NCBI GenBank assembly: GCA_903840315.1
Contig: CAIMFK010000007.1
Span: 1 to 48,886 of the forward strand
DNA from: an uncultured Candidatus Saccharibacteria bacterium
GTDB taxonomy: Bacteria; Patescibacteriota; Saccharimonadia; Saccharimonadales; UBA4665
Length of the DNA: 48,886 nucleotides
Direction of reading: 5' to 3'
The position numbers were made by a program, and so were the translations under genes. Below are positions 8,311 through 34,971 of this stretch, one piece after another. Each line of letters opens with the position of its first letter. Within the stretch, counting starts at the first letter, position 1. The notes beneath the pieces are model-generated. The model was not told the DNA's origin. It did not search any database and worked only from the letters and a program-made list of their open reading frames with translations.

Positions 8311-8390
8311 TACTAAATTGTTGAATATACCGTATTAACTTCTTAAAGATAGTTCCAGAAGTGCCCCATCCTCTATATGAGGACTGGGCA
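8279..8390 (+). other. Hairpin-rich noncoding stretch shared by both repeat copies
   Basis: The region between the tRNA terminator and fic holds no ORF. GGTTCGA (8279-8285) pairs with TCGAACC (8303-8309). TGCCC (8362-8366) pairs with GGGCA (8386-8390), and TCCTC (8369-8373) with GAGGA (8379-8383). In the second copy many changes keep pairing as G-U on the plus strand. It may be a structured RNA or the arm region of an att site. Confidence 0.45.
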
Positions 8391-8476
8391 TATTGAACAT
8401 AGACCGGATTCCATGACCGATCCACTTATATTAATCGTGAAAAAGCACATTATGTTGCTAACTTTCACGCTAAGTA

Positions 8477-8485
8477 TGCTATAAT
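8477..8485 (+). promoter_or_regulatory. Extended -10 promoter of the fic gene
   Basis: TGCTATAAT is an extended -10 element (TGN before TATAAT). The predicted start at about 8492 is 3 nt before the fic ATG, so the transcript is nearly leaderless. The -35 (TTGCTA, 19-bp spacer) is weak. Confidence 0.65.
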
Positions 8486-8494
8486 GGTTATGTA

Positions 8495-9379: not shown

Positions 9380-9448
9380 TTAAATAGCTTTACAATTAAC
9401 AGATGTAAGTTAAGATAAAGTGAGCCCAAGCCAAAAGGTATTAGGCGG

Positions 9449-9585
9449 AGGTTCGAGTCCTGCCCCCGCAACCAAGTCATGCACCAACAGAGGTAGACCG
9501 GGTTCCTAGACCGGTCTTTTTTATTACTTCTTAAAATATCACCACTGTTATTGAGTTCGAGTCCTATCCCTATTGGCTCGAACCG
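9449..9585 (+). repeat. Direct repeat copy 2 (tRNA-fMet 3' fragment; attR-like)
   Basis: It repeats the T arm, acceptor 3' strand and CCA of tRNA-fMet, then the terminator and the downstream block. The 5' half of the tRNA is absent, so it is not a tRNA gene. The intergenic region 9380-9718 consists of this block and its diverged continuation; no ORF is seen in it. Confidence 0.85.
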
Positions 9586-9718
9586 CCGAATCACGCTTAA
9601 ACTACCTTATTACCTCTAGTAATGAGGTTCTAGAAGTGCTTTATTGTCTATATGAGGGTTGGGCAGTTGAACTCTAGACCGGGTTCCTTGATCGTTACCC
9701 ATAGATTATGATTAGTAT

Positions 9719-10477
9719 ATGAGTCTTAAGAACGCAATAGTCAAAATAAAACCTGCAATTTTCCAAATACAGTTAACGCAACAACAATCGAGCAACTTAC
9801 CATTTAATAGCTCATTAGGTACAGCTTTTGCGATATCTGATGACGGCATATTACTTACTGCCCTACATGTAATTAGTTATGGGGAAGAAATTATCGCTAA
9901 ATCTAATGGTCAGGGTAAGTTACACGCCGCATTTGCTGGAGAAAGTGTAGATAGAGAAGACTTAAAAGTTATGGCATCATTTTCCGGAACAGAGTTCGAT
10001 ATCATAGCAAGAGACACGCAAAACGATTTAGCTCTCTTAAAACTTAAGACAGGCGACCTTAGTAACATAAGTATTAGAGTCGGTGGAGAAGATGGGCCTT
10101 TAACTGTCCCCAAATCAGCCACAATCCTTGGGAACAGGCCTGAAAATGGAGAAGCTATTGCTATATCGGGCTATCCTTTAGGTGAACCAAGCTTAGTTAC
10201 AAATGCTGGACACATAGCAAATAATTGGACAATTATTCCACAAATGTACGAGTGTTATCTAGGCGATGTCACCAGTAATCCCGGGAATAGCGGTGGTCCG
10301 GTTTACAGACAGAATGATGCCAAGGTAATAGGTATACTAACTGCTTCAAAATTAACGAGTGTTCTGGATGAAATTGGGCAGCCGACCAACATGAGCCAGA
10401 GCGCATCTCTAGCAGTGATTGTTCCGGGTTATAATATTTTAAAATTTGTTGAGGATAACGATATAAGACTATCTTGA
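9719..10477 (+). CDS. Trypsin-like serine protease without signal peptide
   Basis: A chymotrypsin-fold protease of 252 residues with the triad His50 (LLTALH), Asp103 (QNDLALLKL) and Ser191 (NPGNSGGP). The order and motifs fit the S1C/HtrA-like group, but there is no PDZ domain, signal peptide or membrane helix, so it probably works in the cytoplasm. It sits between the Fic cassette and the recombinase and overlaps the recombinase stop by 9 nt (convergent). Trypsin-like proteases occur as effectors in antiphage systems, so a defence role is possible but not shown. The -10 TATGAT (9707-9712) predicts a leaderless mRNA starting at the ATG. Confidence 0.85.
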   Translation: MSLKNAIVKIKPAIFQIQLTQQQSSNLPFNSSLGTAFAISDDGILLTALHVISYGEEIIAKSNGQGKLHAAFAGESVDREDLKVMASFSGTEFDIIARDTQNDLALLKLKTGDLSNISIRVGGEDGPLTVPKSATILGNRPENGEAIAISGYPLGEPSLVTNAGHIANNWTIIPQMYECYLGDVTSNPGNSGGPVYRQNDAKVIGILTASKLTSVLDEIGQPTNMSQSASLAVIVPGYNILKFVEDNDIRLS

Positions 10478-11734
10478 AAGCAGAATTAGCCCATCCTTAA
10501 TGATCAATTTGTTTTCTATACCGTTTACCAGTTTTGTTTTTTCTGAAAAACTGCCTTTATTTAATACATATCTCGCGTATTCAATTATAGGCTTGTCTAA
10601 TTTACGTTTGACTCCATAGTGCTCAAACAAAGCTTCGGTTGCAGCGTTATGCTTTTCAATCTCACTTCTTAGATTACCCGATATTTTGATCTTTTCAGAA
10701 TGATCGGAAATGAAAATCTCAAGTAGTTCAATAAGCTTAGTTTCGTTTATATATTTTTCTGGGCATTTTAAGTCAATTTTTTTGGTGCATCGGTAATAAA
10801 CATGTCTATTAAATTCACCACTAAGCAATTTCTTAAATTTTTCTTCTGCTGTAACATCACCACCACAATGCCCGCACTTCAGTAAACCCCTAAATGCAAA
10901 CTGCTTTGAACCCCATTTGCCTTTGTTAATACCTCTAAATTGCTGTACAAGCTCGAATAACTCTTTAGAGATTAGTGGTTCGTGAGATCCCTTAAACCAA
11001 ACTCCTTCTGGGTATTCGAATTCTCCATAGTAAAAAGGGTTAGTAAGAATTAGGAATACTTGGCTAAGAGCGACTGGTTTACCTGAGCGATTTGTAAACC
11101 CTATTTCATCAAGCCATAGTTTGAGTTTTCTACCGCTCCAACCGTGGTAACCAGCTTTTCGATATATCTCGGTAATGATTGGAGCTCTATCAGGATCAGG
11201 AATAATATCTTTAATACCGTTAAAGTGACGGTTCATATAGCCTAATGGCGCAACTCCTGGTCGCCATCCCATATTGCATTTATTTTTTATGCCTCTTTTT
11301 ACGTTTACGCTCTTATTATCGTTTTCTAGTTTCGCTTGAGAGCAGAGAATCATTAGTAGGAATTTCTCATTTGGATTATTAGTGAAAGTTTGTGAATATG
11401 TTCTAATCTGAACTAACTTGCCACTGTCCATAAGATCAACTAAAGACCCTAGGTCACCACCGTTACGACTTAATCTTGAAGCATCCCAGCATAGTACACA
11501 GTTATACTCATCATTTCTGAGGCCATTTAATAATTCGTTATATACCTTTCGTTGACCAGACTCTTTAGCGGAGTGACTCTCTTCTAGAACCTTAGTTACC
11601 TTCAATCTTTCCTTTTCAGCCAATAACCTCATTTCGTTTAATTGGGAATCTATAGACATAGCTTGACGCTCGTCCTGCTCGCTAGATTTCCGAGCATATA
11701 AGCAATATTTCATTTCTGGAGCTTTAACTTCCAT
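10469..11734 (-). CDS. Large serine recombinase (site-specific integrase family)
   Basis: From ATG 11734 the protein has 421 residues. It begins with a resolvase domain: ARKSSEQDERQ holds the catalytic serine region, and WDASRLSRNGGDL is the conserved helper motif. A Recombinase domain follows (GVAPLGYM, ITEIYRKAGYHGWS, LILTNPFYYGEFEYP), and then a zinc-ribbon (CGHCGG ... YYRCTKK ... CP). At the C-terminus a coiled-coil segment seems short. This layout is that of phage and transposon serine integrases, though it is smaller than the 500-residue classics. It lies within the accessory region and is the best candidate to move it. A TTG at 11743 and ATG 11713 are alternative starts; the divergent neighbour is hsdM. 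Confidence 0.88.
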   Translation of the reverse strand: MEVKAPEMKYCLYARKSSEQDERQAMSIDSQLNEMRLLAEKERLKVTKVLEESHSAKESGQRKVYNELLNGLRNDEYNCVLCWDASRLSRNGGDLGSLVDLMDSGKLVQIRTYSQTFTNNPNEKFLLMILCSQAKLENDNKSVNVKRGIKNKCNMGWRPGVAPLGYMNRHFNGIKDIIPDPDRAPIITEIYRKAGYHGWSGRKLKLWLDEIGFTNRSGKPVALSQVFLILTNPFYYGEFEYPEGVWFKGSHEPLISKELFELVQQFRGINKGKWGSKQFAFRGLLKCGHCGGDVTAEEKFKKLLSGEFNRHVYYRCTKKIDLKCPEKYINETKLIELLEIFISDHSEKIKISGNLRSEIEKHNAATEALFEHYGVKRKLDKPIIEYARYVLNKGSFSEKTKLVNGIENKLIIKDGLILLSR

Positions 11735-11818
11735 ACAGAGCAAAGGTACCGCAATTAAATATAAAGTCTAGTTTTTGTCTACTTATATCTGTTATAAAGA
11801 GCTATAATATGACTTAAT

Positions 11819-13408
11819 ATGCAAGAAGAGACAAATACACTTAAGGAAGATGAAAGAGCTCACCTTCATAGTACTATTTGGAAAATAGCAAACGATCTTA
11901 GAGGTTCAGTTGACGGATGGGACTTTAAGCAATATGTCCTTGGTATTCTTTTTTATCGTTTTATTTCTGAAAACCTTGCTAGTTATATTAATCAAGAAGA
12001 GCGAAAAACTGGTGCTAGTGATTTTAACTACGTAACTTTAAGTGATGATGCGGCTGAATTTGGTCGAATAGATACAGTACAAGAAAAAGGCTTCTTTATA
12101 TTGCCAAGTGAATTATTTGAGAATGTAAATAATAAAGCTAAGAATGATGCAAATTTAAACGAAACTCTCTCCGGAGTTTTTCGCAATATAGAAAACTCTG
12201 CTAATGGTACTGACAGCGAAGACGATATAAGAGGGCTTTTTGATGATATTGATGTGAACAGTAATAAGCTTGGTCCAACTGTCGCTAAACGTAATGAACG
12301 TCTGGTTAAGTTATTGAACGCTGTTGGGGAACTGAATCTAGGTAGTTATTCAGACCATACTATCGATGCTTTTGGAGATGCATATGAATATTTAATGACT
12401 ATGTATGCAAGTAACGCTGGTAAATCGGGAGGAGAGTTTTTCACCCCACAAGAAGTGAGTGAACTATTAGCCGAGATAACTGTACACGGCAAGAAGCAAG
12501 TAAATAAAGTTTACGATCCTGCATGCGGATCTGGATCATTACTTCTTCAATTTGCAAAAGTTCTAGGCAAAGATAATGTGAGTCAAGGTTTCTTTGGTCA
12601 AGAAATCAATATTACCACCTACAACCTTTGCAGAATAAATATGTTTTTACACGATATTAACTATGAGAAATTTAATATTGCACATGGTGACACGCTAATA
12701 GATCCAGCACATTGGGATGATGAGCCATTTGATGCAATAGTATCAAATCCACCTTATTCAATTAATTGGGAAGGCGATTCTAACCCTCTACTTATTAATG
12801 ATCCGCGATTTTCTCCTGCAGGCGTACTAGCACCTAAAAGTAAAGCAGATCTGGCCTTTACCATGCATATGCTTAGCTGGCTTTCTACGAGTGGAACTGC
12901 TGCAATAGTCGAGTTTCCGGGAGTTCTTTATAGATTAGGTGCAGAACAAAAAATTCGTAAATATTTAGTAGACAATAATTATGTAGATACGGTAATTCAG
13001 CTTCCTGCAGATCTGTTTTTTGGTGTGGGCATCGCTACTTGCATAATAGTTCTGAAAAAGAGTAAAAAAGATAACTCTATACTTTTCATAGATGCTTCAG
13101 CCGAATTCGTGCGAGGAGGAAATAAGAATAAACTTAGTGAGAGTAATCGCTTAAAAATTTTAAATGCATTTATTGACCGAAATAATGTGGATTATTTTGC
13201 AAAGCTTATTAAGAATGATGATATCGGGAAAAATGAATATAATCTTTCTGTTAATAACTATATTTTACAGAAGGACAATAGAGAGGTCATAGATATCTCT
13301 AACATTAATTTAGAGTTAGCGCAAATTGTTGCTAGGCAAACAATACTTCGCAAACAAATTGATGACATTATTAACGATATTGAGAGTACACATAATGAGC
13401 AAGATTGA
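11819..13408 (+). CDS. hsdM: Type I restriction-modification methyltransferase subunit
   Basis: A protein of 529 residues with an N-terminal helical HsdM_N domain (to about 160) and an N6-adenine methyltransferase domain. The SAM-binding motif DPACGSGSLLL is at about residue 233 and the catalytic NPPY at about 311. KSGGEFFTPQEV before motif I is typical of HsdM. With HsdS it methylates the recognition site; with HsdR it restricts unmodified DNA. First gene of an hsdM-hsdS-hsdR operon. The -10 TATAAT (11803-11808) predicts a leader of about 4 nt. The hsdS start overlaps its end by 14 nt. Confidence 0.95.
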   Translation: MQEETNTLKEDERAHLHSTIWKIANDLRGSVDGWDFKQYVLGILFYRFISENLASYINQEERKTGASDFNYVTLSDDAAEFGRIDTVQEKGFFILPSELFENVNNKAKNDANLNETLSGVFRNIENSANGTDSEDDIRGLFDDIDVNSNKLGPTVAKRNERLVKLLNAVGELNLGSYSDHTIDAFGDAYEYLMTMYASNAGKSGGEFFTPQEVSELLAEITVHGKKQVNKVYDPACGSGSLLLQFAKVLGKDNVSQGFFGQEINITTYNLCRINMFLHDINYEKFNIAHGDTLIDPAHWDDEPFDAIVSNPPYSINWEGDSNPLLINDPRFSPAGVLAPKSKADLAFTMHMLSWLSTSGTAAIVEFPGVLYRLGAEQKIRKYLVDNNYVDTVIQLPADLFFGVGIATCIIVLKKSKKDNSILFIDASAEFVRGGNKNKLSESNRLKILNAFIDRNNVDYFAKLIKNDDIGKNEYNLSVNNYILQKDNREVIDISNINLELAQIVARQTILRKQIDDIINDIESTHNEQD

Positions 13409-14564
13409 TGATTTAATCTTTGAGTATTGTCCTGAAGGGGTAAGTTTTAAAGAATTAGAAAGCATAATTAAAAAAGTAGATAGATCAAATCAAAATGTTC
13501 CTAAATCAAAGATTAAATCACATGGTCATTATCCCGTATATACACAAAGCGCAAATCTTAGCCCAGATGGCTATTCAGATGATGATAGCAAAGTAGTTAA
13601 TGATGTCCCTTTAATTTTATATGGTGATCATACAAACGTACTCAAATGGATTTCTAACGATTTTATAATTGGCGCAGATGGAGTTAAATTAGTAAAGCCA
13701 AGTATTGATTCGGGCCTGCAAAATAGATTTCTATATCATTATCTTTGTGAAAAGATTGAAGATATACCAAATGGATATGCTAGGCATTTCGCAAAATTAA
13801 AAACTGTCAAAATTCCTACTCCTCCAACTATCGTGCAGAATGCGATTATAGATATTTTGGATAAATTTACCTTGCTAGAAACAGAGCTAGAAACAGAGCT
13901 AGAAACAAGACGTAAACAGTATGAATTTTATAGAAATAATCTTTTCGATAATATAGTCCTTAAGGATTCACAAAAGTTATCGCTAGATGATGTATGTACG
14001 AAAGTTGATAGAATTAAATGGAAGAACCACACAGATAAAAGGTTCACCTACATAGATCTATCTTCAGTTAACCGCAACAATAATTACATATCAAAACCGC
14101 AGACAATAAATTACAAAAATGCGCCTAGCAGAGCACAACAAATTTTAAATGATGAAGACGTTATCTTTGGTACGACAAGACCTACGTTAAATCGTTTGTG
14201 CTATATAACTAAGGACTACGAAGGTCAGATATGCAGTACGGGATTCTGTGTTTTAAGAGCTGATAAAAGTATTATATTGCCTAGATATTTATACTTTTTG
14301 TTAACGACAAATGAATTTTATAACTTTGTTGCGAGTAATCAGGAAGGGGCGGGTTATCCATCGATTTCTGATACTAAATTAAAGTCTTACAATATTATGG
14401 TGCCTAAATTATCCGAACAGAAAAGGGTAGTAAATATTCTTAATAAATTCGACAGACTTGTTAATAGCATAAATGAAGGTTTGCCTGCCGAACTTGTCGC
14501 TCGTCGAAAACAGTATGAACATTACCGCAACAAATTATTGACTTTCCCGGAGCTAGTAGCATGA
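13395..14564 (+). CDS. hsdS: Type I restriction-modification specificity subunit with central 12-bp repeats
   Basis: Starting at ATG 13395 (MSKIDDLIFEYCPEGV), the protein has 389 residues. An upstream in-frame ATG at 13326 exists, but it lies deep within hsdM. It has two target recognition domains, each followed by a conserved helical spacer ending in R-RKQYE-[FH]YRN (RRKQYEFYRNNL and RRKQYEHYRNKL), the usual half-repeat plan of HsdS. The central spacer contains LETE-LETE-LETR encoded by three 12-bp units, like the TAEL repeats of EcoR124. The two recognition domains differ, so a bipartite asymmetric target is expected. The stop overlaps the hsdR start (ATGA). Confidence 0.93.
   Translation: MSKIDDLIFEYCPEGVSFKELESIIKKVDRSNQNVPKSKIKSHGHYPVYTQSANLSPDGYSDDDSKVVNDVPLILYGDHTNVLKWISNDFIIGADGVKLVKPSIDSGLQNRFLYHYLCEKIEDIPNGYARHFAKLKTVKIPTPPTIVQNAIIDILDKFTLLETELETELETRRKQYEFYRNNLFDNIVLKDSQKLSLDDVCTKVDRIKWKNHTDKRFTYIDLSSVNRNNNYISKPQTINYKNAPSRAQQILNDEDVIFGTTRPTLNRLCYITKDYEGQICSTGFCVLRADKSIILPRYLYFLLTTNEFYNFVASNQEGAGYPSISDTKLKSYNIMVPKLSEQKRVVNILNKFDRLVNSINEGLPAELVARRKQYEHYRNKLLTFPELVA
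13875..13910 (+). repeat. Three 12-bp tandem repeats inside hsdS
   Basis: Units CTAGAAACAGAG (13875-13886), CTAGAAACAGAG (13887-13898) and CTAGAAACAAGA (13899-13910). The unit length is a multiple of three, so gain or loss keeps the frame and changes the distance between recognition domains. Confidence 0.95.
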
Positions 14565-17500
14565 GTAAATTTAATCTTGTTGCTGAAAGTCCTAGTAGTA
14601 CAGTTGTATCGGAATATACACCAAATAAAGAACGAGCAAAATCTTATCAAAGCGAAGCTGAACTTGAAAAAGCATTTATAGAAAAGTTACAAACACAAGC
14701 TTATGATTATTTATCTATTAAAAGCGAAGCTGAACTTCGGGCAAATCTTCGCGCAAAACTCCAAAAATTAAATAGTTTTGAATTTAGTGATTCCGAATGG
14801 GAACGTTTTTTTAATGAAAGAATCGCTAATGAAAACGAAGGTATTGAAGAAAAAACTGCAAAAATTCAAGAAGACCATATCCAACTGCTTACGAAGGATA
14901 ATGGCGAAGTTAAGAATATCTATTTAATAGACAAGACTAACATTCATAACAATTGTTTGCAGGTTATTAACCAGTACGAAATCGATGGTGCAAGAGCCAA
15001 TCGCTATGATGTTACAGTTCTAGTTAACGGTTTGCCGCTGGTTCATATTGAATTAAAAAGACGCGGGGTACCTCTACAAGAAGCCTTTAATCAGATTAAT
15101 CGTTATCAGCGAGATAGCTTCTGGGCAGGTAGTGGGTTATTCGAATATGTTCAGCTATTTGTGATTAGTAACGGGACTTATACTAAATACTACAGCAATA
15201 CAACTCGCTGGCAACATATTAAAGAGTCTGGCGAATCACATTCTAAAAAGGGTAATAAGACTAGTAATAGTTTTGAGTTTACAAGTTGGTGGGCAGATGC
15301 TAATAACAAACCCATTATTGACTTAATAGACTTTTCGCAAACATTCTTTGCCAAACATTCTTTGCTCAATGTTATTTCCAAGTACTGCGTATTTACTTCA
15401 GAAAAGTTGTTACTCGTCATGCGACCTTACCAAATTGTTGCAACGGAAAGAATTTTAAGTCGCATTCAAGTTTCATCTAACTATAAGAAATTAGGAACTA
15501 TTGACGCCGGTGGTTACATTTGGCACACAACCGGGTCAGGTAAAACTCTCACTAGCTTTAAGACTGCACAACTAGCTAGCAAGCTTGATTCAGTAGACAA
15601 AGTTATATTTATTGTTGACCGTAAAGATCTTGATTACCAAACGATGAAAGAATATGACAAGTTTGAAAAAGGTGCAGCTAATAGTAATACAAGCACTGCA
15701 AAATTGCGTAAGCAACTCGAAGATCCTAATTCGCGCATTATTATCACAACAATACAAAAGTTAGACAAATTTATTAAGAAAAATGAACATCATAATATTT
15801 ATGATGGGCATATTGTTTTAATTTTCGATGAATGTCACCGATCTCAATTTGGTGATATGCATTCTGCAATTACGAAAAACTTTAAAAATTATCATATTTT
15901 CGGGTTTACTGGCACTCCTATATTTGCCAGCAATTCTTCTAGTGGTGGTCGTGCTGATCTGAAGACTACTGAGCAAGCTTTTGGAGATAAGTTACATACG
16001 TATACAATTGTTGATGCAATAACGGATAAAAACGTATTACCGTTTCGTATTGATTATATAAATACTGTTCATTCTAACGATGATATTGATGATGAAAAAG
16101 TTCGATCCATAGATACTGAATCAGTTCTTGGAGCACCTGAAAGAGTGAATAAAGTAGTTCAGTATATCCGCAAGCATTTTGATCAAAAGACTAAACGCAA
16201 TAGCTACTATAAATTGCAGGATCGTCGATTAGCTGGCTTTAACTCTATCTTTGCGGTTAGCTCTATAGAGATGGCAAAGAAATACTATGCTGAGTTCAAA
16301 AGCCAACAAAAAGAGTTGCCAGAAGCGGCAAGATTGAAAATTGCGATCATTTATAGCTTTGGTGTAAATGAAGAAGACCCGGGCTTTGATGGTTTAGAGG
16401 ACGAAAACTCTGATAGTACTGAAGGTCTCGACCAAAGCTCCAGAGATTTTCTAGAAGATGCAATCGTTGATTATAACAAGTTATTTTCAACTAACTTTGA
16501 TACCTCTGCCGATAAGTTCCAAAACTATTACAAAGATGTTTCCGATAAGATGAAGAAGCGCGAAATCGACATGCTTATAGTGGTCAATATGTTCCTTACA
16601 GGATTTGATGCAACTACACTAAACACATTATGGCTTGATAAGCGACTTCGCCAACATGGTTTACTGCAAGCTTACTCACGCACAAATAGAATACTTAATT
16701 CGGTAAAAACATTCGGTAATATAATTAGCTTTAGGAACTTAGAAAAGGCTACAAATGATGCCTTAGCCTTGTTCGGGGATAGAGAAGCAAGTGGCATTGT
16801 ACTGCTTAAATCTTATTCCGAGTATTACAATGGCTATGAAGATAACGGTAAGCATATACCCGGCTATTCAGATCTCGTGGGTGAACTTATTAAACGATAC
16901 CCGGTTGGCGAACAAATTATTGGTGAACAAAATCAGAAGTACTTTATTAAATTATATGGCGCTATTCTAAGAGTCCGTAATATCTTAGATTCTTTTGATG
17001 ACTTTGCAGATATCTTAAGTCCTCGTGATATGCAAGATTACCACAGCATGTATATTGATCTATATAATCAGTTCCGAAACGAATCAGATGCAGATAAAGA
17101 AAGCATATTAGACGATGTAGTTTTCGAGATGGAACTAATTAAACAGGTTGATATCAATATTGATTATATATTGGGTCTAATTCGCCAATACCACTCTGGG
17201 AATCAAGAAAATAAAGAATTACTCATAGACATTAATAAGGCAATTGACTCAAGCGTTGAATTAAGGGATAAGAAACAACTCATAGAGCAATTTATTAACT
17301 CCCTAAATATTAACTCGGTGGTTGAAGATGATTGGCATAAGTTTATCGATGAAAAGAAATCAGAGGAACTTGATAGCATCATTCAGGAAGAGGGTCTTGA
17401 TCCCGATGAAACTTATAAATTTATAGAAAATGCATTTCGTGATGGTGGCGTAAAATCATCAGGTACTGCAATAACTAAGGTCCTACCTCCAGTGTCACGT

Positions 17501-17587
17501 TTCTCAACTGATAACGCAAGGGGTAAGAAACGTGAAACGGTACTTGATAAACTTACCTCATTCTTTAATAAGTTCTTTGACGTATAG
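14561..17587 (+). CDS. hsdR: Type I restriction enzyme endonuclease/translocase subunit
   Basis: A protein of 1008 residues. The N-terminal nuclease of the PD-(D/E)xK type shows RYDVTVLVNG followed by HIELKRRG. A SF2 helicase motor follows: Walker A TTGSGKT at about residue 322, the DECH box DECHRSQFG at about 422, GFTGTPIF, and motifs V-VI in MFLTGFDATTLNTLWLDK and LLQAYSRTNR. A C-terminal helical domain for binding the HsdM2S core completes it. It translocates and cuts unmodified DNA. All key motifs look intact, so the system should be active. It converges with the terminase large subunit gene with a 12-base gap. Confidence 0.95.
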   Translation: MSKFNLVAESPSSTVVSEYTPNKERAKSYQSEAELEKAFIEKLQTQAYDYLSIKSEAELRANLRAKLQKLNSFEFSDSEWERFFNERIANENEGIEEKTAKIQEDHIQLLTKDNGEVKNIYLIDKTNIHNNCLQVINQYEIDGARANRYDVTVLVNGLPLVHIELKRRGVPLQEAFNQINRYQRDSFWAGSGLFEYVQLFVISNGTYTKYYSNTTRWQHIKESGESHSKKGNKTSNSFEFTSWWADANNKPIIDLIDFSQTFFAKHSLLNVISKYCVFTSEKLLLVMRPYQIVATERILSRIQVSSNYKKLGTIDAGGYIWHTTGSGKTLTSFKTAQLASKLDSVDKVIFIVDRKDLDYQTMKEYDKFEKGAANSNTSTAKLRKQLEDPNSRIIITTIQKLDKFIKKNEHHNIYDGHIVLIFDECHRSQFGDMHSAITKNFKNYHIFGFTGTPIFASNSSSGGRADLKTTEQAFGDKLHTYTIVDAITDKNVLPFRIDYINTVHSNDDIDDEKVRSIDTESVLGAPERVNKVVQYIRKHFDQKTKRNSYYKLQDRRLAGFNSIFAVSSIEMAKKYYAEFKSQQKELPEAARLKIAIIYSFGVNEEDPGFDGLEDENSDSTEGLDQSSRDFLEDAIVDYNKLFSTNFDTSADKFQNYYKDVSDKMKKREIDMLIVVNMFLTGFDATTLNTLWLDKRLRQHGLLQAYSRTNRILNSVKTFGNIISFRNLEKATNDALALFGDREASGIVLLKSYSEYYNGYEDNGKHIPGYSDLVGELIKRYPVGEQIIGEQNQKYFIKLYGAILRVRNILDSFDDFADILSPRDMQDYHSMYIDLYNQFRNESDADKESILDDVVFEMELIKQVDINIDYILGLIRQYHSGNQENKELLIDINKAIDSSVELRDKKQLIEQFINSLNINSVVEDDWHKFIDEKKSEELDSIIQEEGLDPDETYKFIENAFRDGGVKSSGTAITKVLPPVSRFSTDNARGKKRETVLDKLTSFFNKFFDV

Positions 17588-17599
17588 CTGCAAAGTGCA

Positions 17600-19054
17600 T
17601 TAGAAAAATACAAAGTCAAAATGACCTTCATCTACTTTAGTGTGAACGTAATTTAGAACTAACGTTAGCGCATCAACTAAGTCGTCATGTTTTTCTACAC
17701 CGAAATGTACTAATTGGTTAACCATTTTATTTATTGGCTTGGTGTTAGGAAAGAACACTTTACCTTGCTCAAATAACATACTTGCTGTAACTAAACGTGA
17801 ATGTTTGTCACCCTTAACGCCTAAACCTTCAACTTCTAATCCTTGGCTAATCAACACTTCTACTGCTGATTGCTGATAGGCTACATTTTCTACTAGAACC
17901 AAGGGTCTATATTCGACCTCGAATAGTCTACTGTAGCTATTTATACGCTCACAAGTTTCAAAGAATCCTAGTCGTTCATTCACGAAATGGGTATCTATAA
18001 AATACCTTCTGTCGTTAATTGCGTAACCATAAACATGCACAACTACTATTGCAGTATAATCTGCAGAATTACTTTTAGAGATTGCTAAATCAACGCCGAT
18101 ATAGCTATTAATATATTCATTCTCACCATCTTTTTCAGGCAATTCTTCGTAATAATTAATCCATTTCTGATCAATTATTTGACCTTCGTCTGGAACAATT
18201 AATAGTAAGTATTCTCTCTGCCATGCTCTAAAATTACCAATTTCTTTCTCCTTAGCTAATATCGACTTATTGTCGGGATACTTTCCGTGCCATAAAGATT
18301 CGCCATTTACATTAACAAGTGGGTAGCGTTTAAAGACTCCGGCCATAGATTTGTTATCTATATTGTCCTTAAGTCGCATCAGCAGGGAATCCTCATGTAA
18401 AAGGTTCCCTATAGTTATTATCTTGGTATCTTCATCACCAAGTGGCAAAATATCCCCTGTAAACCACTCATACGTTTTGTTACGCCCCTCTATTGTCTTA
18501 ACTGAGCTCATATCCTCCACATCGTCGGCAATGATTAGATCTGGCCTATATGCACCGTGTCTAACGCCACGAATTGCTTGTTCTGTTGATGCCGTTACAA
18601 TTCTAGCCTTATATTTGGGAAGAATTAGGGCAGTAGACCCCCACTCGTCAGCCTCTTCCTCTAATGGTCCGAAGTCTTTACGTAGTAGTTCATTGTTTTC
18701 GAACTCACGTTTAATATTTAATAAGTGATTACGTGCTTGGCTTTGAGTTTGACTTAAGATAACTACAAACTTTTTCTTTTGAACTCCTAAGATTGCCCAC
18801 ATTGGGTATGACTGAGTAATAATTGTTGACTTACCTGAACCACGGAAGGCTACTATAACGGCATGTTTTATAGATTCATCTTCTGTTATCGCGTATAGCT
18901 CTCTATGAAAATCGGCAGTAGGGTGCTTAACGTATTCACTCATATAGAGGTGAAAGAAATAATAATGGCTTTGCTTGGCCAGATGTATCCTGACCGAGCG
19001 TTGGTTTTTTAGTAGTTCAAAGTCTAAATCTTTATTTTCCATAACGCTGGCCAT
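17600..19054 (-). CDS. Phage terminase large subunit
   Basis: A protein of 484 residues with an ATPase domain and a nuclease domain. Walker A is RGSGKST (71-77), Walker B LIIADDVED (173-181), and a coupling motif is ITIGNLLHE. The C-terminal RNase H-like nuclease shows VDLAISKSNSAD (first acidic residue) and HDDLVDAL (last). The protein docks on the portal, pumps DNA into the head and cuts concatemers. It looks intact. It overlaps the small subunit gene; MENKD at ATG 19042 is an alternative start. No portal gene follows: the next gene on that side is the convergent hsdR. Confidence 0.92.
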   Translation of the reverse strand: MASVMENKDLDFELLKNQRSVRIHLAKQSHYYFFHLYMSEYVKHPTADFHRELYAITEDESIKHAVIVAFRGSGKSTIITQSYPMWAILGVQKKKFVVILSQTQSQARNHLLNIKREFENNELLRKDFGPLEEEADEWGSTALILPKYKARIVTASTEQAIRGVRHGAYRPDLIIADDVEDMSSVKTIEGRNKTYEWFTGDILPLGDEDTKIITIGNLLHEDSLLMRLKDNIDNKSMAGVFKRYPLVNVNGESLWHGKYPDNKSILAKEKEIGNFRAWQREYLLLIVPDEGQIIDQKWINYYEELPEKDGENEYINSYIGVDLAISKSNSADYTAIVVVHVYGYAINDRRYFIDTHFVNERLGFFETCERINSYSRLFEVEYRPLVLVENVAYQQSAVEVLISQGLEVEGLGVKGDKHSRLVTASMLFEQGKVFFPNTKPINKMVNQLVHFGVEKHDDLVDALTLVLNYVHTKVDEGHFDFVFF

Positions 19055-19454
19055 CCCCAGTTGTTTGAAGTAGGCCGGCTAACCTTAAAGCATTAGCTAC
19101 TTGCTGTGCTTGATCTTCAGTTAATATTTGGCTTTCTTGTTTTATTCGGGCATTAAGTTCAATCCTGGTGGTATAAGCACCATGGTGATGCTTTAGCCAG
19201 AAAATTATAGCCGTCATATTACGTTCCTTGATAGAAGATATTAGCTGGGATTCTGCAAGGTCATTAATAAAGCCAGCGCTGAGCATAATTGCTTCATCAC
19301 AGGCTTCAGCAAAATCTGTATCAGACTTCCTCCAGCGGTAATATGTAGCTCTCCCTAAACCTGTTTTACTACATGCAATTTCAACTACAGGAAACTTCTT
19401 TAGTTGTTCGAGTAGTCTTTTTTTACCACGTGCTTGTTTCGCTACAATGCTCAT
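19032..19454 (-). CDS. Phage terminase small subunit
   Basis: Starting at ATG 19454 the protein has 140 residues. A longer frame extends upstream, but a GGGAG ribosome-binding site and the ATGA overlap with the upstream gene support this start. The N-terminal part holds a helix-turn-helix (VVEIACSKTGLGRATYYRWRK), followed by helical segments including EAIMLSAGFINDLAESQL and ERNMTAIIFWLKHHHGAYTT. The last part matches terminase small subunits that recognise packaging sites. It lies directly upstream of the large subunit in the same operon. Confidence 0.8.
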   Translation of the reverse strand: MSIVAKQARGKKRLLEQLKKFPVVEIACSKTGLGRATYYRWRKSDTDFAEACDEAIMLSAGFINDLAESQLISSIKERNMTAIIFWLKHHHGAYTTRIELNARIKQESQILTEDQAQQVANALRLAGLLQTTGDGQRYGK

Positions 19455-20779
19455 GATAATTTCTCCCGTTTTAGTCCAGTAAGCTTTTCCCAGCGGTTCA
19501 TTATTACCTCTGCGTAAACAGGGGACTTTTCCATTAAGAAGCACCGACGCTTAAGCTTGGTAGCCGCAATTAAGGTTGAGCCTGAACCACCAAAAGGTTC
19601 TACCACTAAGTCTCCACGTTTTGTTAACACTTTTATATAGGGAATTAGGATTTCAATTGGTTTAGTCCCGAAGATAATACCTTGGCCTGAACTTTTTTCG
19701 TCTGAAACATTAGCCTCTATAAAATCAGTAGGTTGGTACTTCTTGCCGTGTTTATAGCCCTCCCATTGTGGCTTTCCGGATATAGCGTATAGAGCGGTTT
19801 CATATTCTTCCTGTAATCCATCAGGTTCTTCTTCATGGTTATATTCAACCGTACCATTTGCTCCTACCATTGCTATATCGTGTTTAGAGAAGAACTTATA
19901 TTTAGCAGCAAAGCCCTGGTTCCGATTTGGTAAGTGCCAGACTAACATATTTTTAATCTTCCAGTGCTTAGCCATTTCTCCCCAAATAACAGGTATATTC
20001 TTCCAGTTCTCATAGCAGATTATTGAGAAATCTGACTTAGCTGAACCCGCTACATTATTCATCCACAGTTCAGTGAAGTTATCTGGCAGTTCGTCTGTTT
20101 CAAGATATTTACGATTCTTTTTAGCACCAAATCCTTCAGTCGGTTTGCCATGTCTTTTGCCGGCTCGTAAGTAGTCAAGTATGTAAGGGGGATCAGTAAG
20201 TGCTAAGTCGGCCTTTTGACCGTCCATAAGCTTAATAAAATCCTCATCTACCGTGCTGTCACCAACCATCAGTCTAGAATCTCCGAGCTGGTAGATATCT
20301 CCCTTCTTAGCTTTAATTTCAGAAATGTTTAACTTATCTAACTCATGTTGAAGATCAAATATTTCTGGGTGATCATTATCTATATCGAAGATGATATCCA
20401 GATCTTCACTTGAGAAACCAACATCTGTTAGAAGAATTTCATCGAACTCTGCCAATAGATCCCAGTCCCATGCCCCCTGAGCTTTATTAAGTCTTAGGTT
20501 TAGTTCTTGCTCACGTTCTATATCCGGTATATGTACGTAGACTATAGGTACTTCTTTCATTCCCATGTCTTTAGCGACCTTTAGCCTAAAATGCCCACCG
20601 ATAACAACGTTAAGTCGTTCCTTGGATCCGTTGACGACCAAAGGATCGACTAGACCAAAACGCTTCATGCTCTTAGTCAATTGTTCAATCGCTGACTTAT
20701 CCCAGCGTCTTGGATTATATGGAGCTGGTTTCAGCTCCGATATCTTAATATTTTGTATAGTTAGTTGTTGCTCAGCCAT
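19451..20779 (-). CDS. ParB-like nuclease domain fused to a DNA methyltransferase
   Basis: A chimera of 442 residues common in phages. The N-terminal ParB/sulfiredoxin-like domain shows LKPAPYNPRRWDK, LVDPLVVNG and VVIGGHFRLKVAKDMG. The methyltransferase half has the catalytic DPPY near residue 196 and the SAM motif VVEPFGGSGSTLIAA near 394-408. This order (catalytic motif first) is the beta class, acting on N6-adenine or N4-cytosine. It may protect element DNA from host restriction. A strong AAAGGAG site lies 7 nt upstream of the ATG. Its start lies just downstream of the structured RNA candidate. Confidence 0.92.
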   Translation of the reverse strand: MAEQQLTIQNIKISELKPAPYNPRRWDKSAIEQLTKSMKRFGLVDPLVVNGSKERLNVVIGGHFRLKVAKDMGMKEVPIVYVHIPDIEREQELNLRLNKAQGAWDWDLLAEFDEILLTDVGFSSEDLDIIFDIDNDHPEIFDLQHELDKLNISEIKAKKGDIYQLGDSRLMVGDSTVDEDFIKLMDGQKADLALTDPPYILDYLRAGKRHGKPTEGFGAKKNRKYLETDELPDNFTELWMNNVAGSAKSDFSIICYENWKNIPVIWGEMAKHWKIKNMLVWHLPNRNQGFAAKYKFFSKHDIAMVGANGTVEYNHEEEPDGLQEEYETALYAISGKPQWEGYKHGKKYQPTDFIEANVSDEKSSGQGIIFGTKPIEILIPYIKVLTKRGDLVVEPFGGSGSTLIAATKLKRRCFLMEKSPVYAEVIMNRWEKLTGLKREKLS

Positions 20780-20810
20780 GGTAATTCTCCTTTCCTTGGC
20801 ATTAAGCTAA

Positions 20811-20970
20811 TAAAAAAGCCCACCCCACAGCCAAATCGAGGACCGGATCCACATCATAAAGACATGGGGGTCCTCCATTTTGCTGTAGAGTGGGCACTGT
20901 CGAGGTGCTTTACCTCTCGGGTTAGTCAATCTCGCTAGTTGACCAACCGTCTACGGCTTTAAGCCGAATA
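20811..20970 (-). ncRNA. Candidate structured RNA of about 160 nt with a long terminator-type hairpin
   Basis: Read on the minus strand, consecutive stems appear: CGGC/GCCG around 20954-20966, a 10-bp stem with arms 20939-20948 and 20920-20929, a GAGGT/ACCTC stem (20902-20916), and a 27-nt imperfect stem with arms 20869-20895 and 20818-20844 followed at once by six U. In the long stem two of four non-Watson-Crick positions are G-U only on the minus strand; the single imperfect pair of the 10-bp stem is also G-U only on that strand. On the plus strand all would be C-A mismatches. No ORF occupies the stretch. It lies between the early small genes and the ParB-methyltransferase/terminase genes. 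It could be a free small RNA, an attenuator or a packaging-related RNA. No known family is recognised. Confidence 0.6.
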
Positions 20971-20991
20971 CACAATTCCACACTTCTACTA

Positions 20992-21384
20992 TCATGTAGA
21001 TTGTAAAAGGTGCTGGCGTTTTAATGACTCGAGTTTTTCGAGGGCATCTTCCGCCATATGCACCGGCAAACCAGTTGTCGGCACATATACGCGTAACATA
21101 CGTTTTTTATTCTTTGCTAGTAGCTCTATAATTTCGTCTTCTTTAAAGTTAATACCAACTTCATAGGTATTGTCTGCAACGGGTTTGATATGGCTATAGG
21201 AACGACGTGGCTTACCACCTTTAAGTTGCTTTGCCATATTCCTTACTAGGGAAGTAGGCTTACTTGGCTTCTGAGCATGTAGACTTATATCAGTCAGAAT
21301 AATATCTATAGAATCCTCGATTGGAATATAGCTACCAGTTGGTACAACGCGCCTCTTCATGATCAGTCGATTATTTATTTTCAT
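20992..21384 (-). CDS. Hypothetical small protein of the phage-like operon
   Basis: From ATG 21384 (MKINNRLIMKRRVVPTG) the protein has 130 residues. A GAGGA ribosome-binding site made by the end of the GIY-YIG gene supports this start over the longer frame. It is mixed alpha/beta, basic, and has strand-like segments (TYEVGINFKEDEII, RMLRVYVPTTGLP) and a C-terminal helix (AEDALEKLESLKRQ). No family is recognised. It is the last gene before the structured RNA candidate. Confidence 0.65.
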   Translation of the reverse strand: MKINNRLIMKRRVVPTGSYIPIEDSIDIILTDISLHAQKPSKPTSLVRNMAKQLKGGKPRRSYSHIKPVADNTYEVGINFKEDEIIELLAKNKKRMLRVYVPTTGLPVHMAEDALEKLESLKRQHLLQST

Positions 21385-21388
21385 ATCC

Positions 21389-21706
21389 TCAGCCTGTCCT
21401 AACCCCGCAAGGTGGATTATGGTAATCACGCACAAGCTTTTCAAGTGCCATACGACTGGCTTCGTCGCAATAATAAGCCGATGCGTATAGAGTATCCACT
21501 ATATGGTTTTGCCATGATTCTTTACGGTCGTGATTAGATAAGCGAGCTTTTATATCACCGGCCTCACCGGCATCTATAACCCTATGATTGTCGCCGTTTT
21601 TAGTTGATATTACATATACTCCAGACTCTTGCTTAAGCGAGCCGGTGTTAGTATGCGGTCCGTCAAAGGAATAAATCCCGTTGCTGGTATGAACATTCAG
21701 GCTCAT
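21389..21706 (-). CDS. GIY-YIG-like nuclease domain protein
   Basis: A small protein of 105 residues. GVYVIST stands for the GIY strand and VIDAGEAGDIKARLSNHD for the YIG strand and following Arg-containing helix; ASRMALEKLVRDYHNP holds the expected glutamate. The second motif is diverged (DAGE in place of YIG-like), which is tolerated in the wider family. A stand-alone domain of this size is common in phages. Its ATG overlaps the stop of the upstream 49-residue ORF (ATGA), so the two are translationally coupled. Confidence 0.7.
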   Translation of the reverse strand: MSLNVHTSNGIYSFDGPHTNTGSLKQESGVYVISTKNGDNHRVIDAGEAGDIKARLSNHDRKESWQNHIVDTLYASAYYCDEASRMALEKLVRDYHNPPCGVRTG

Positions 21707-21852
21707 GACTTTTTACCCTTTGGCTTTGGGTGAGGCCCAGATTCTTTAACGGTAGTGTTAGGGTGTTTTTTTGCATATTCGGGAGATACAAACCTTCCGT
21801 TAATAGCGCTGTGATATTTTGGTGGTTGTGGTTTTGGATTAGAGTTTGTCAT
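21703..21852 (-). CDS. Small phage-associated protein with a GRFVS-YAxxHPxTTV motif, 49 residues
   Basis: A short reading frame starts at ATG 21852 and ends in a TGA that overlaps the next ATG. A GAGGG ribosome-binding site lies 8 nt upstream. The residues SAINGRFVSPEYAKKHPNTT follow a pattern (S-A-x-[TN]-GRFVS-x-x-YA-x-x-HP-x-TTV-x-E) that I recall from many small ORFs of phages and Proteobacteria. The end is rich in Pro and Lys. Function is unknown. It is the first gene of the early minus-strand operon. Confidence 0.75.
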   Translation of the reverse strand: MTNSNPKPQPPKYHSAINGRFVSPEYAKKHPNTTVKESGPHPKPKGKKS

Positions 21853-21908
21853 TTTTTGACCCTCGTTTTAAGTTAATTTTTATCCTCCCAAAAGAGGACT
21901 GCAGCTAC

Positions 21909-21938
21909 ATTATAACACGTCTATCTAAAAACTGTAAA
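21909..21938 (-). promoter_or_regulatory. Promoter of the early minus-strand operon
   Basis: On the minus strand TTTACA (21938-21933) and TATAAT (21914-21909) are 18 bp apart. The transcript would begin near 21902 and carry a small 5' hairpin (TCCTC 21883-21887 with GAGGA 21894-21898) before the ribosome-binding site. TGTAAA occurs on the plus strand here and again at 21951-21956, a possible operator pair. Confidence 0.65.
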
Positions 21939-21961
21939 CAACCCAGAAAGTGTAAAGAAAC

Positions 21962-21990
21962 TTGAATTCAAAAACAAAATTCTATATACT
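21962..21990 (+). promoter_or_regulatory. Promoter of the LexA/CI-like repressor gene
   Basis: TTGAAT (21962-21967) and TATACT (21985-21990) have a 17-bp spacer. The expected start at 21997 is one base before ATG 21998. The TTG that opens the longest reading frame is therefore the -35 box and not a start codon. Confidence 0.75.
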
Positions 21991-21997
21991 TAAGCTA

Positions 21998-22624
21998 ATG
22001 CACAAGGTCCAAGAACAACTTCTTGCGTTATCTAAGAAACAAGACATTACAAAGTTAGGCTTAAGAGAATTAGCTAGAACTCTGAATGTTCGTAATCCGG
22101 AAACCATTAAGTACCACTTATCGAAACTACAGGACGCTAAAATTTTAGAAGCACCTGAGATTGATCATAGTGTTCAACAAATGAGTGATTATAAGCTGGT
22201 AACCATTCCAGTTTTAGGTGCTGCAAGCGCTGGTCCAGCTACGCAATTCGCTGACTCTAAGGTAGAAGGTTATATAAAAATTTCTTCTAAGCTGTTAAAG
22301 ACGAAGAAATACAAAGAATTATATGCTTTAAAGGTAGTGGGTGATTCAATGAACCAAGCTAAAATCGAAGGCCAAACAGCCGAGGATGGTGACTACATAA
22401 TAGTAGATAGTACGAAGAGAAACCCTGTAAATAGTAGCTACGTTATTGCAGTTGTAGATGGGCTCGCTAATGTTAAGCGTTTTGTTAGAGATAACGATCG
22501 CATTGTTTTACTATCTGAATCATCGGGTAATTTTTTACCCATATTTGTCCATGAAGATGATGAGCGAGAAGGCTTAATCAGCGGAACTGTAGTGCAAGTA
22601 GTTAAGCAACCACGATTCGCCTAA
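21998..22624 (+). CDS. LexA/CI-like self-cleaving repressor
   Basis: From ATG 21998 the protein has 208 residues. The N-terminal winged helix (to about 55) includes LGLRELARTLNVRNPETIKYHLSKL. The C-terminal S24 peptidase domain has the cleavage site Ala78-Gly79 (GAASAGPA), the catalytic Ser117 (VVGDSMNQ) and Lys160 (DGLANVKRF). RecA-stimulated self-cleavage after DNA damage would inactivate it. It faces the early operon across about 150 bp of shared regulatory DNA, the classic arrangement of a prophage repressor. A host LexA is possible but less likely in this context. Predicted leaderless mRNA. Confidence 0.88.
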   Translation: MHKVQEQLLALSKKQDITKLGLRELARTLNVRNPETIKYHLSKLQDAKILEAPEIDHSVQQMSDYKLVTIPVLGAASAGPATQFADSKVEGYIKISSKLLKTKKYKELYALKVVGDSMNQAKIEGQTAEDGDYIIVDSTKRNPVNSSYVIAVVDGLANVKRFVRDNDRIVLLSESSGNFLPIFVHEDDEREGLISGTVVQVVKQPRFA

Positions 22625-22657
22625 AGGTTTAAGTTAGCTAAATAGTAAAATAGATGT

Positions 22658-23854
22658 ATGTACTTACATCTAAAAGATAGAAAATTCTACGAAGATATTT
22701 ATGATCGCGTTACCGTTGAGGATGCGCGACGTGGTATGGTTCATTACGATAAATTCTTTCTAGAACTAAAAAAGAAGCTTCCTAAAGACGACAAAATAGA
22801 CAGACCCGGGAATGCTATATTGCTAAACGTTTTCTATATGCAGACTGTTGGTAACGATTTACTCTATCGTTATGAAAACCGTGAGCGCCATATCAATGAA
22901 AGAATGGCTGAAGATGAGAAGAAGGATGAACAAATTGCAACTGCCAGATTAACTAAAGAGCCATATTGCCATCATTGTAATAGGCATGGTTTAAGGATTA
23001 TAGATAAGTCGTTGATGCATCGAGGTGATCATTATGACCTAAACGAGCCCGAAGAGGTGCTATTTATGCTTAGCTGTCCTCACTGTAAGAAGAAGAGTGC
23101 TTTTTGGGAAGATGGTACCGCTTGGAAGGTGAAGGCGATAGTATGTCCAAAATGCAAAACTGAAATGACCCATAAAACAACGACAACTAAGATGTCATTT
23201 ATCTTTACATATAGTTGTCCATCGTGTGGCCACAGTTATAAAGATAAGATGGATCGTTCTACCAAAGAAGAGGAGAGGTCTGATCCTGAATATGATAAAG
23301 ACCGTGTCCATTTTTGCCTTGAGGATAAAGAATTCCGGGATAAGTTATATGGAATACAACGTGGTTTTGAAGGTATGGCAGCGCTGGGTAAAGAGCTAAA
23401 AGAAAAGGACGATAACAAGCATATATATGATGCAATGAAAGAAGTTAAGAAGCCAAAGATTGCTGAGTTAACTCCCTTACTTGCACCAATTCTAGAGAAA
23501 GCTGGATATACTGAGTTTAGTCTAGACAAACCAGAAATGGGGCGGGATGTTTACATAGGTTTTAGTTGCCTAGACACCAAATCAGATCGTGAGGATTATG
23601 ACAGCAGAAAGACTCTTAAGAAGCTAGTCGATAGAGCTTTAGTAGACACTAACTGGCGTCTAATGAGTGATGGAATAAATTACCGACTAGGTTACTTAAG
23701 CGGAAGGATTCGTGCATATGAGCGAGAGGAAGACCTTAAGAAGCTAGTTATGCAAACTAAGAAGTTGAAACCTAAGCAAGTAAGTAGTGAGGCTGATAAT
23801 CCAGACAATGAATTTAGTATGGATGATGGAAAAGGCGGAAGAATCCAATACTAA
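22658..23854 (+). CDS. Zinc-ribbon protein of unknown function
   Basis: A hydrophilic protein of 398 residues rich in Lys, Asp and Glu. Four CxxC knuckles lie in the middle: CHHC, CPHC, CPKC and CPSC (about residues 110-190), which should bind two zinc ions in tandem ribbons. The first 100 and last 200 residues are helical and charged. No catalytic motif is seen. A -10 TAAAAT (22646-22651) puts the transcript start on the ATG. Downstream of the repressor in the same direction, it may be an accessory gene of the element. No family recognised. Confidence 0.7.
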   Translation: MYLHLKDRKFYEDIYDRVTVEDARRGMVHYDKFFLELKKKLPKDDKIDRPGNAILLNVFYMQTVGNDLLYRYENRERHINERMAEDEKKDEQIATARLTKEPYCHHCNRHGLRIIDKSLMHRGDHYDLNEPEEVLFMLSCPHCKKKSAFWEDGTAWKVKAIVCPKCKTEMTHKTTTTKMSFIFTYSCPSCGHSYKDKMDRSTKEEERSDPEYDKDRVHFCLEDKEFRDKLYGIQRGFEGMAALGKELKEKDDNKHIYDAMKEVKKPKIAELTPLLAPILEKAGYTEFSLDKPEMGRDVYIGFSCLDTKSDREDYDSRKTLKKLVDRALVDTNWRLMSDGINYRLGYLSGRIRAYEREEDLKKLVMQTKKLKPKQVSSEADNPDNEFSMDDGKGGRIQY

Positions 23855-23905
23855 AGTGCGGGTTTTGTTCGGTAAATGCTTACTACCTGCTTCTTTTTTA
23901 AAGGA

Positions 23906-23952
23906 ACGGTCTCATTTGTCTCATTTATCCCTGTTATCAGGTTCCAGACCGT
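23906..23952. repeat. Inverted repeat plus partial third copy of the tRNA-linked block (possible right attachment site)
   Basis: ACGGTCT (23906-23912) and AGACCGT (23946-23952) are inverted repeats. Between and into the right arm lies a stretch (23924-23949) that matches 8263-8288 at 22 of 26 positions, including TTATCCCTGTTAT and AGGTTC. No coding frame covers 23855-24089. Confidence 0.4.
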
Positions 23953-24023: not shown

Positions 24024-24052
24024 TTGACATATTTAAGCATAAAAGCTATAAT
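24024..24052 (+). promoter_or_regulatory. Perfect consensus promoter of the 32-residue peptide gene
   Basis: TTGACA (24024-24029) and TATAAT (24047-24052) with a 17-bp spacer. A leader of about 30 nt carries an AAAGGG ribosome-binding site (24076-24081), 8 nt before the ATG. Confidence 0.9.
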
Positions 24053-24089
24053 ACGGTTGTTAGTTAAAAAATAAAAAAGGGCAAAAAGT

Positions 24090-24188
24090 ATGGAGAAAAC
24101 CAACTCAAGAAGTGGATTGGCATTTGAGCTTATTGAAGCTCATGATCCTGCTATTAGTGAGATAGATAGAATACTATCTAGCTTATAA
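24090..24188 (+). CDS. Orphan 32-residue peptide in its own transcription unit
   Basis: The peptide starts MEKTNSRSGLAFELIEA and ends in ISEIDRILSSL. It is acidic overall, with an amphipathic helical second half and no membrane helix, Cys or obvious signal sequence. It has a perfect promoter, a good ribosome-binding site and a strong terminator 16 nt after the stop, so a real and strongly expressed gene is likely even though it is so short. It lies between the accessory region and tRNA-Met. No modification enzyme or transporter is adjacent. Possible roles are a regulatory peptide, a secreted factor or a toxin/antitoxin part; none is supported directly. Confidence 0.7.
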   Translation: MEKTNSRSGLAFELIEAHDPAISEIDRILSSL

Positions 24189-24204
24189 AAAAATCCAAAA
24201 AAAT

Positions 24205-24230
24205 AAGAGTTGTCACCAACTCTTTTTTTA
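24205..24230 (+). terminator. Intrinsic terminator of the 32-residue peptide gene
   Basis: AAGAGTTG (24205-24212) pairs with CAACTCTT (24217-24224) with a TCAC loop, followed by a T-run. Confidence 0.9.
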
Positions 24231-24241
24231 TTGCCTGAAAA

Positions 24242-24318
24242 TGGTAGCGGCGACAGGATTTGAACCTGTGACCTCGAGCTTATGAGTCTCGCGCTCTAAC
24301 CAACTGAGCTACGCCGCC
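24242..24318 (-). tRNA. Elongator tRNA-Met (CAU)
   Basis: The cloverleaf has acceptor GGCGGCG with CGCCGCT (a G-U end pair), D arm GCTC-AGTTGGTTA-GAGC, anticodon stem-loop with CTCATAA, T arm ACAGG-TTCAAAT-CCTGT and an encoded CCA. D loop, variable GAGGTC and T arm resemble E. coli elongator tRNA-Met. C11:G24 rules out the initiator. Confidence 0.92.
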
Positions 24319-24386: not shown

Positions 24387-25265
24387 ATGAAAATTATTTT
24401 AGAAGATGGTAGATATGTGGTTGCTGTAAGTGGCGGAGTTGATTCTGTCGTTCTTTTAGATTTATTAACCAAGGAGAAGGGCCTAATTCTTGCAGTCGCT
24501 CATTTTGACCATGGCATAAGAGATGAGTCATATATTGATCGAGATTTTGTAGAACAACTTGCCGTTAAGTATGGTCTTGAGTTTTATTCCGAAGATGGCA
24601 ATTTAGGTAACCGTGCGAGCGAGGAACAGGCTCGAATTGCTAGATATAATTTCCTAGAAAGAGTTAAAGATGAATTTAATGCTCATTTGATCATTACCGC
24701 ACACCATCAGGACGATCTTTTAGAAACGGCCGCACTAAATATTTTAAGAGGAACCGGAAGAAAAGGCCTTAGCTCACTTAAAAGTACTAAATCTTTGTTC
24801 AGGCCTTTACTAAATTATTCTAAAGAAGAAATTATAGAATACGCACTTAAGAATAATCTCAATTGGGTTGAGGATAAAACAAACCTTGATACAAAGTACA
24901 GAAGAAACTATGTAAGACATGAACTTCTAAGTAATTTATCGGATAATGAAAAAGATCATCTCATTGATGTTGTCCATAAAACAGATATTATCAATAAGGA
25001 GATAGATAAAGCTCTTAATGCCGAAATCAACAACCATACGACTAAAGATGAAATGGATCGTTATTGGTTCGTTATGCTACCACATGATTTATCTGAGGAG
25101 ATTATGGCTCAGTGGCTCAGAAACAGTGGCCTGGCGTCCTTTGATAGAAAAACTATCAATAGGTCAGTGATTGCTGCAAAAACTTTAAAACCTGGCAAAA
25201 AATCTGAAATATACAAAAATTTTAAGCTGCTCATCGAAGATAAAAGCTTAAAAATTATTAAGTAA
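24387..25265 (+). CDS. tilS: tRNA(Ile)-lysidine synthetase
   Basis: An N-type ATP pyrophosphatase of 292 residues. The PP-loop motif SGGVDS is at residues 15-20; AHFDHGIRDES, ITAHHQDDLLET and LRGTGRKGLSSL are further TilS marks. The enzyme converts C34 of tRNA-Ile(CAU) to lysidine so that it reads AUA. It is shorter than the E. coli enzyme (about 430 residues) and keeps the catalytic domain plus a short C-terminal part, like the compact type. Its likely substrate is the tRNA at 7467-7542. A -10 TATTAT (24374-24379) predicts an mRNA starting 1 nt before the ATG. Confidence 0.92.
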   Translation: MKIILEDGRYVVAVSGGVDSVVLLDLLTKEKGLILAVAHFDHGIRDESYIDRDFVEQLAVKYGLEFYSEDGNLGNRASEEQARIARYNFLERVKDEFNAHLIITAHHQDDLLETAALNILRGTGRKGLSSLKSTKSLFRPLLNYSKEEIIEYALKNNLNWVEDKTNLDTKYRRNYVRHELLSNLSDNEKDHLIDVVHKTDIINKEIDKALNAEINNHTTKDEMDRYWFVMLPHDLSEEIMAQWLRNSGLASFDRKTINRSVIAAKTLKPGKKSEIYKNFKLLIEDKSLKIIK

Positions 25266-25310
25266 AACTTTCGTGCGTGATTGCAAACACTCTGTTATAA
25301 TTATTTATCT

Positions 25311-33167: not shown

Positions 33168-33169
33168 TG

Positions 33170-34930: not shown

Positions 34931-34971
34931 AAATGATTTATATTCTTTATCACTTATGGTAACATTTGTTT

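Follow-up and report, generated by a model that had tools for sequence, protein, structure and literature searches.

A stand-alone chromosomal gene for a conserved, lineage-specific microprotein of Saccharibacteria

The window analysed here, a stretch of 48,886 nucleotides from an uncultured Candidatus Saccharibacteria bacterium, carries a compact expression unit for a 32-residue peptide, situated between an inserted element and a chromosomal flank. The unit and its surroundings comprise the following features:

8125..8199, + strand, tRNA-Met of the initiator type (fMet, judged by eye)
8264..23950, inserted element of 15.7 kb, its ends marked by a 26-bp att-like repeat (8264-8289 and 23925-23950); separate from the unit
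24024..24052, + strand, perfect sigma70-type promoter TTGACA-17-TATAAT (-35 TTGACA at 24024-24029, -10 TATAAT at 24047-24052), read directly
24059..24089, + strand, A-rich 5' leader, with a probable transcription start around 24059
24076-24081, + strand, AAAGGG ribosome-binding site, 8 nt before the ATG at 24090
24090..24188, + strand, open reading frame of 32 codons plus TAA for the peptide MEKTNSRSGLAFELIEAHDPAISEIDRILSSL, which belongs to a conserved family of microproteins
24205..24231, + strand, intrinsic terminator with an 8-bp stem, a 4-nt loop and a T run (the hairpin itself at 24205-24224)
24242..24318, - strand, tRNA-Met, convergent neighbour of the peptide gene and its neighbour in several other lineages too; we take it to be of the elongator type, judging by eye from tRNA features
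24387..25265, + strand, tilS (PF01171), chromosomal flank
25281-27179, ftsH (PF01434/PF00004), following tilS, chromosomal flank

The promoter, the AAAGGG site, the short frame and the strong terminator are all present as the preliminary description had reported, and its view that such a complete unit is unlikely by chance is borne out: perfect promoters occur twice in the whole window (at 24024 and at 8049), whereas 30 mononucleotide shuffles average 0.03, and homologues of the peptide were found, the existence of which rules out a chance unit. The promoter at 24024 is the sole 12-of-12 site between 20 and 29 kb of the window, and the one at 8049 starts 76 bp ahead of the tRNA-fMet. Strong transcription is predicted for the peptide gene from its expression signals, its promoter being comparable in quality to that of the tRNA-fMet; tiny as it is, the gene may be skipped by standard gene finders.

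The unit starts 74 bp past the right-hand repeat of the inserted element, which encodes a Fic protein, a serine recombinase, a type I restriction-modification system (the restriction genes being named by reading the sequences, not by search), a terminase, a ParB-methylase and an S24 repressor. Such proximity might suggest that the peptide is a cargo, or accessory, gene of this element, and a constant linkage between the two had been raised in the preliminary description. Yet the gene lies outside the repeats, it occurs across families, with relatives in other families carrying it elsewhere, and in a genome of the same genus (G002, locus L010) it stands 128 nt after the corresponding tRNA-fMet with the element missing, and after it come the other tRNA-Met and a frame of the size of tilS. 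The constant linkage is thereby refuted; the position of the repeats and the unoccupied site in G002 rule out an origin as cargo, to which we give next to no credence, and by its position the peptide gene is chromosomal, outside the neighbouring mobile element. The arrangement in G002 suggests that the ancestral order was most likely tRNA-fMet, peptide, tRNA-Met, tilS, ftsH. A linkage to tRNA-Met, also raised earlier, holds in part: a tRNA-Met lies within 1.5 kb of the gene in 19 of 51 loci, no other tRNA coming that near, and not in the remainder. At the left end of the element, a 140-bp direct repeat (window 8171-8310 and 9446-9585, 92% identical), which includes the 3' end of the tRNA-fMet, flanks a cassette of 1.3 kb with the Fic protein, which may be a nested, second insertion at this tRNA. 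Farther along the window, three minus-strand ORFs (31311-34879) are of low complexity and surface-protein-like, and adjoin secreted-protein-like ORFs at 34966-37154.

A search for homologues, as had been suggested, recovered copies in many families of the class. With the single peptide, copies of 78% identity were found in two genomes of the same genus and weaker ones elsewhere. A profile of 15 members matched 62 of the 93 genomes of its own family at E<=0.01 (a hand count from the table, leaving out G084, which has an internal stop), while an automatic tally at E<=1 gave 71/93, and 47/53 among the good genomes. With 45 members, the profile matched 87 of 392 genomes of the class at E<=0.05, a figure that takes in six weak matches from the large family f26: the four that were read (G220, G303, G334 and G358) are spurious, being unrelated frames with the promoter absent, and the other two are G354 and G369. 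Outside f26, the 16 weaker matches that were read are all short frames of the peptide family, and a promoter-like site of at least 11/12 precedes 13 of them (G373, G041 and G066 have a weaker site). Beyond the class, nothing convincing was found among 379 genomes of the phylum, the matches there sitting in long frames and for that reason not being accepted. A scan of named species genomes with the promoter-leader pattern gave 19 matches, 16 of them titled Saccharibacteria, one Patescibacteria group and two only 'bacterium'; the peptide follows in 16 of the 19 according to a script, and also in L127, where Val replaces the conserved Glu, L120 and L122 being cut at the end of the locus. Family f26 and nearly all of genus g62 are without the peptide, which is thus not essential to all Saccharibacteria; in the one g62 genome that was read (L096), the tRNA-Met and tilS are kept and the peptide is missing.

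Members of the family are 26-32 aa long and share the consensus MKxxxGLxFELxxTxxxxIxxIDRxLKKL over 48 aligned rows, in which Glu13 and Asp26 are invariant and Leu29 is kept in at least 90%; L127, with its Val, falls outside this invariance. The peptide of the window has the core FE...ID..L (F12, E13, I25, D26 and L29) in a stand-alone short frame. All 48 loci with a placed start, the window included, have an intact frame, and pN/pS ranges from 0.05 to 0.39 in 18/18 equal-length pairs, which were hand-picked and are not independent (pS 0.29-1.14, non-synonymous changes 0.03-0.30 per site). Near-saturation of the synonymous sites alongside a preserved peptide is, as read from the codons, a sign of strong purifying selection on the peptide. 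The preliminary description had reasoned that a kept promoter before a broken frame in relatives would point to a small RNA; what we find instead are intact frames under purifying selection, as in a conserved, translated microprotein family. A small RNA without a peptide is ruled out by this codon evolution, the frame not decaying where the promoter stays. The stand-alone gene proposed earlier is thus real, and we regard its being a true and translated gene as practically certain on these comparative grounds. Taken at the level of sequence comparison, the evidence establishes the locus as a chromosomal gene for a conserved, translated, lineage-specific Saccharibacterial microprotein.

The expression signals are conserved along with the frame. 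The promoter is a 12/12 match in 38 of the 48 loci, window included, a terminator-like site lies within 100 nt past the stop in 34 of 48, and in the regions around the gene in relatives (n=15, ~199 kb) 12 of the 14 perfect promoters belong to the peptide gene. Since the promoter is nearly always perfect and such promoters are rare among the other genes in these 199 kb, the mRNA should be among the more abundant ones. In many relatives, the leader has a further element: 35 of 60 leaders have a palindrome of at least 8 nt where transcription starts, versus 3-6 in four control windows and a shuffle mean of 4.5. These 60 leaders omit promoters below 11/12 (L032, L034, L042, L051, L063), L159, L161, L163 and the rejected f26 loci; four of them came from a pattern containing the motif, and minus those the palindromes number 31 in 56. 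Five different 12-nt perfect palindromes occupy the same place at the transcription start, and the leader palindromes show compensatory changes (examples are TTGTGATCACAA, TTGTCATGACAA, TTGTTGCAACAA, TTGAGATCTCAA and TTAGTCGACTAA; the leader alignment, A5, consists of 24 hand-picked leaders of 41). Of the 17 genomes searched, 11 have a single exact copy of the motif GTGATCACAAACAAA, in each case before the peptide gene, and the remaining six have none; with one mismatch allowed, it is found in one other place, in G006.

Such a pattern could be read as a dual-function RNA, the 5' palindrome of which would serve for self-dimerisation or as a stabilising hairpin while the peptide would be a second product. 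The single occurrence of GTGATCACAAACAAA upstream of the peptide gene, the excess of palindromes over the controls and their compensatory changes would all fit such an RNA. However, the two central bases are also symmetric and cannot pair in a single-stranded hairpin, so that a DNA operator explains the palindrome equally well; part of the palindrome count, moreover, stems from the leaders retrieved with the motif itself. The palindrome is also missing in the window, L009 and L010, the window's own genus being without it, and folding of leader plus coding sequence is only weakly better than that of shuffles (mean z of -1.4 over 48 loci). We therefore deem a dual-function RNA unlikely. Because the symmetry takes in the central bases, a DNA operator seems to us more likely than an RNA hairpin; pair counts alone do not decide between the two.

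The peptide itself had been described as acidic and helical, and each of these characters applies to a part. Acidity is confined to the window's genus, most relatives being basic at the C-terminus (KIDRLLKKL), and helicity to the C-terminal 12 residues: AF2 on the family alignment (pLDDT 80.6; pTM low at 0.31, as expected at 32 residues) gives a helix at 20-31, leaves the residues up to 19 without regular structure and assigns a strand nowhere in the model. The C-terminal half (I..IDRxLKKL, with the invariant Asp) is predicted to be an amphipathic helix, while the N-terminal half (GLAFEL, with the nearly invariant Glu) is predicted to be non-helical and has an alternating pattern as in a strand. 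No signal sequence, processing site, membrane segment or hydrophobic run is present in the peptide sequences of the window and the aligned relatives. A short ORF with strong signals might also suggest a type I toxin or a leader peptide controlling a downstream gene. A toxin of this type would be a hydrophobic, membrane-spanning peptide, and the sequences have no such segment; the terminator follows directly after the ORF, the next gene in the window is a tRNA on the opposite strand, and the strong purifying selection likewise argues against both, which makes this reading very improbable.

In a part of the family, the gene directly before the peptide gene codes for a protein rich in Ser and Thr, 103-121 aa long in the 12 that were aligned, with the motifs TQxPQ and VQPGT and, judged by eye, a C-terminal membrane segment, for which no reliable Pfam match was found. 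This TQxPQ family, seen for example at L133-L135, turned up in no other position than directly before the peptide gene: a profile (A6) built from the peptide neighbours and searched genome-wide in 92 genomes of the family detected it in 29 of them, at 30 places, 30/30 directly upstream of the peptide gene, 29/92 being a lower bound, since at least one obvious homologue (L063, G080) escaped the profile. G020 has each of the two genes twice, the second pair being in decay (L026, G020:C18:15807-16217), with an internal stop and the start codon missing. The A6 profile did not find the protein in the genome of the window; present in only 29/92 genomes and missing here, it is, by this profile, not an obligate partner. 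In L136, L137 and L142, two pilin-like genes and a third large gene lie directly before the TQxPQ-peptide pair, and in L141 a pilin-like gene precedes the peptide without a TQxPQ gene (pilin-like genes being recognised by the N-terminal motif only). Together with the small size, the solubility and the predicted strong expression of the peptide, these neighbours could point to a leaderless exported peptide that acts on the host cell or signals between episymbionts. Against this, a signal sequence and a processing site are both absent, the pilin-like neighbours occur in only 4 of 15 regions, and the conservation of the sequence across families argues for a conserved intracellular partner, so that we consider export quite improbable.

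We moderately favour a reading of the product as a docking peptide or small subunit, abundant and cytosolic. The N-terminal half would form a strand joining the edge of a sheet in a partner, as its alternating pattern suggests (AF2 gives no strand), and the C-terminal helix would pack beside that strand on the partner. With this strand and helix form of a docking peptide, it would most likely serve a larger machine, cytosolic or membrane-associated, as a small regulatory or accessory subunit present in abundance, the structural basis being a single-chain prediction. In many relatives, a factor binding the palindrome at the transcription start probably sets expression, and the tail-anchored, Ser/Thr-rich TQxPQ membrane protein is, from its linkage, a likely companion. 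High abundance, a cytosolic location, docking on a partner and regulation through the palindrome are what we infer for this peptide. Tentatively, and as a possibility more than an expectation, it might be an undescribed, strongly expressed core microprotein that in many lineages makes up half of a module with the tail-anchored membrane protein, under a lineage-specific operator, and that regulates a machine particular to episymbionts, e.g. type IV pili or envelope proteolysis. The genomes of Saccharibacteria are very small, and many steps of their life on host cells are unexplained. The peptide, for which the libraries searched gave no matching family, opens a small and testable way into a core process. 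A natural comparison for finding the partner is provided by the large family (f26) that lacks it and by the genus (g62) that lacks it for the most part.

The preliminary description had assigned the peptide to no known family, and our searches agree with it: neither Pfam nor NCBIfam contains the family or gave a reliable profile match, PHROGs gave no reliable match (best E of 0.007, to one PHROG and with one member of 15), and no reliable relative was found in the PDB (best sequence match E of 0.33), so that identity with a known family in these libraries is rejected. The titles and beginnings of abstracts covered by a text search of the literature describe no such peptide. The family may already be listed, unnamed, in published smORF catalogues.

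AcrZ, CydX and Sda are microproteins that dock on a large complex, AcrZ and CydX being membrane peptides. Like the Saccharibacterial peptide, they are encoded by stand-alone genes of about 30-50 codons that are easily missed by gene callers; the searches of the family libraries gave no sequence relationship to them, and the Saccharibacterial peptide is soluble. In size and promoter strength, the peptide resembles small ribosomal proteins such as bL36 and bTHX, but unlike these it has two conserved acidic residues, is not found in the large family f26 and has the poor best PDB match given above. A further parallel lies in the small-protein catalogues of Sberro 2019 and the later smORF sets, which reportedly list uncharacterised small proteins: their entries are the same kind of object, short conserved families emerging from comparative genomics.
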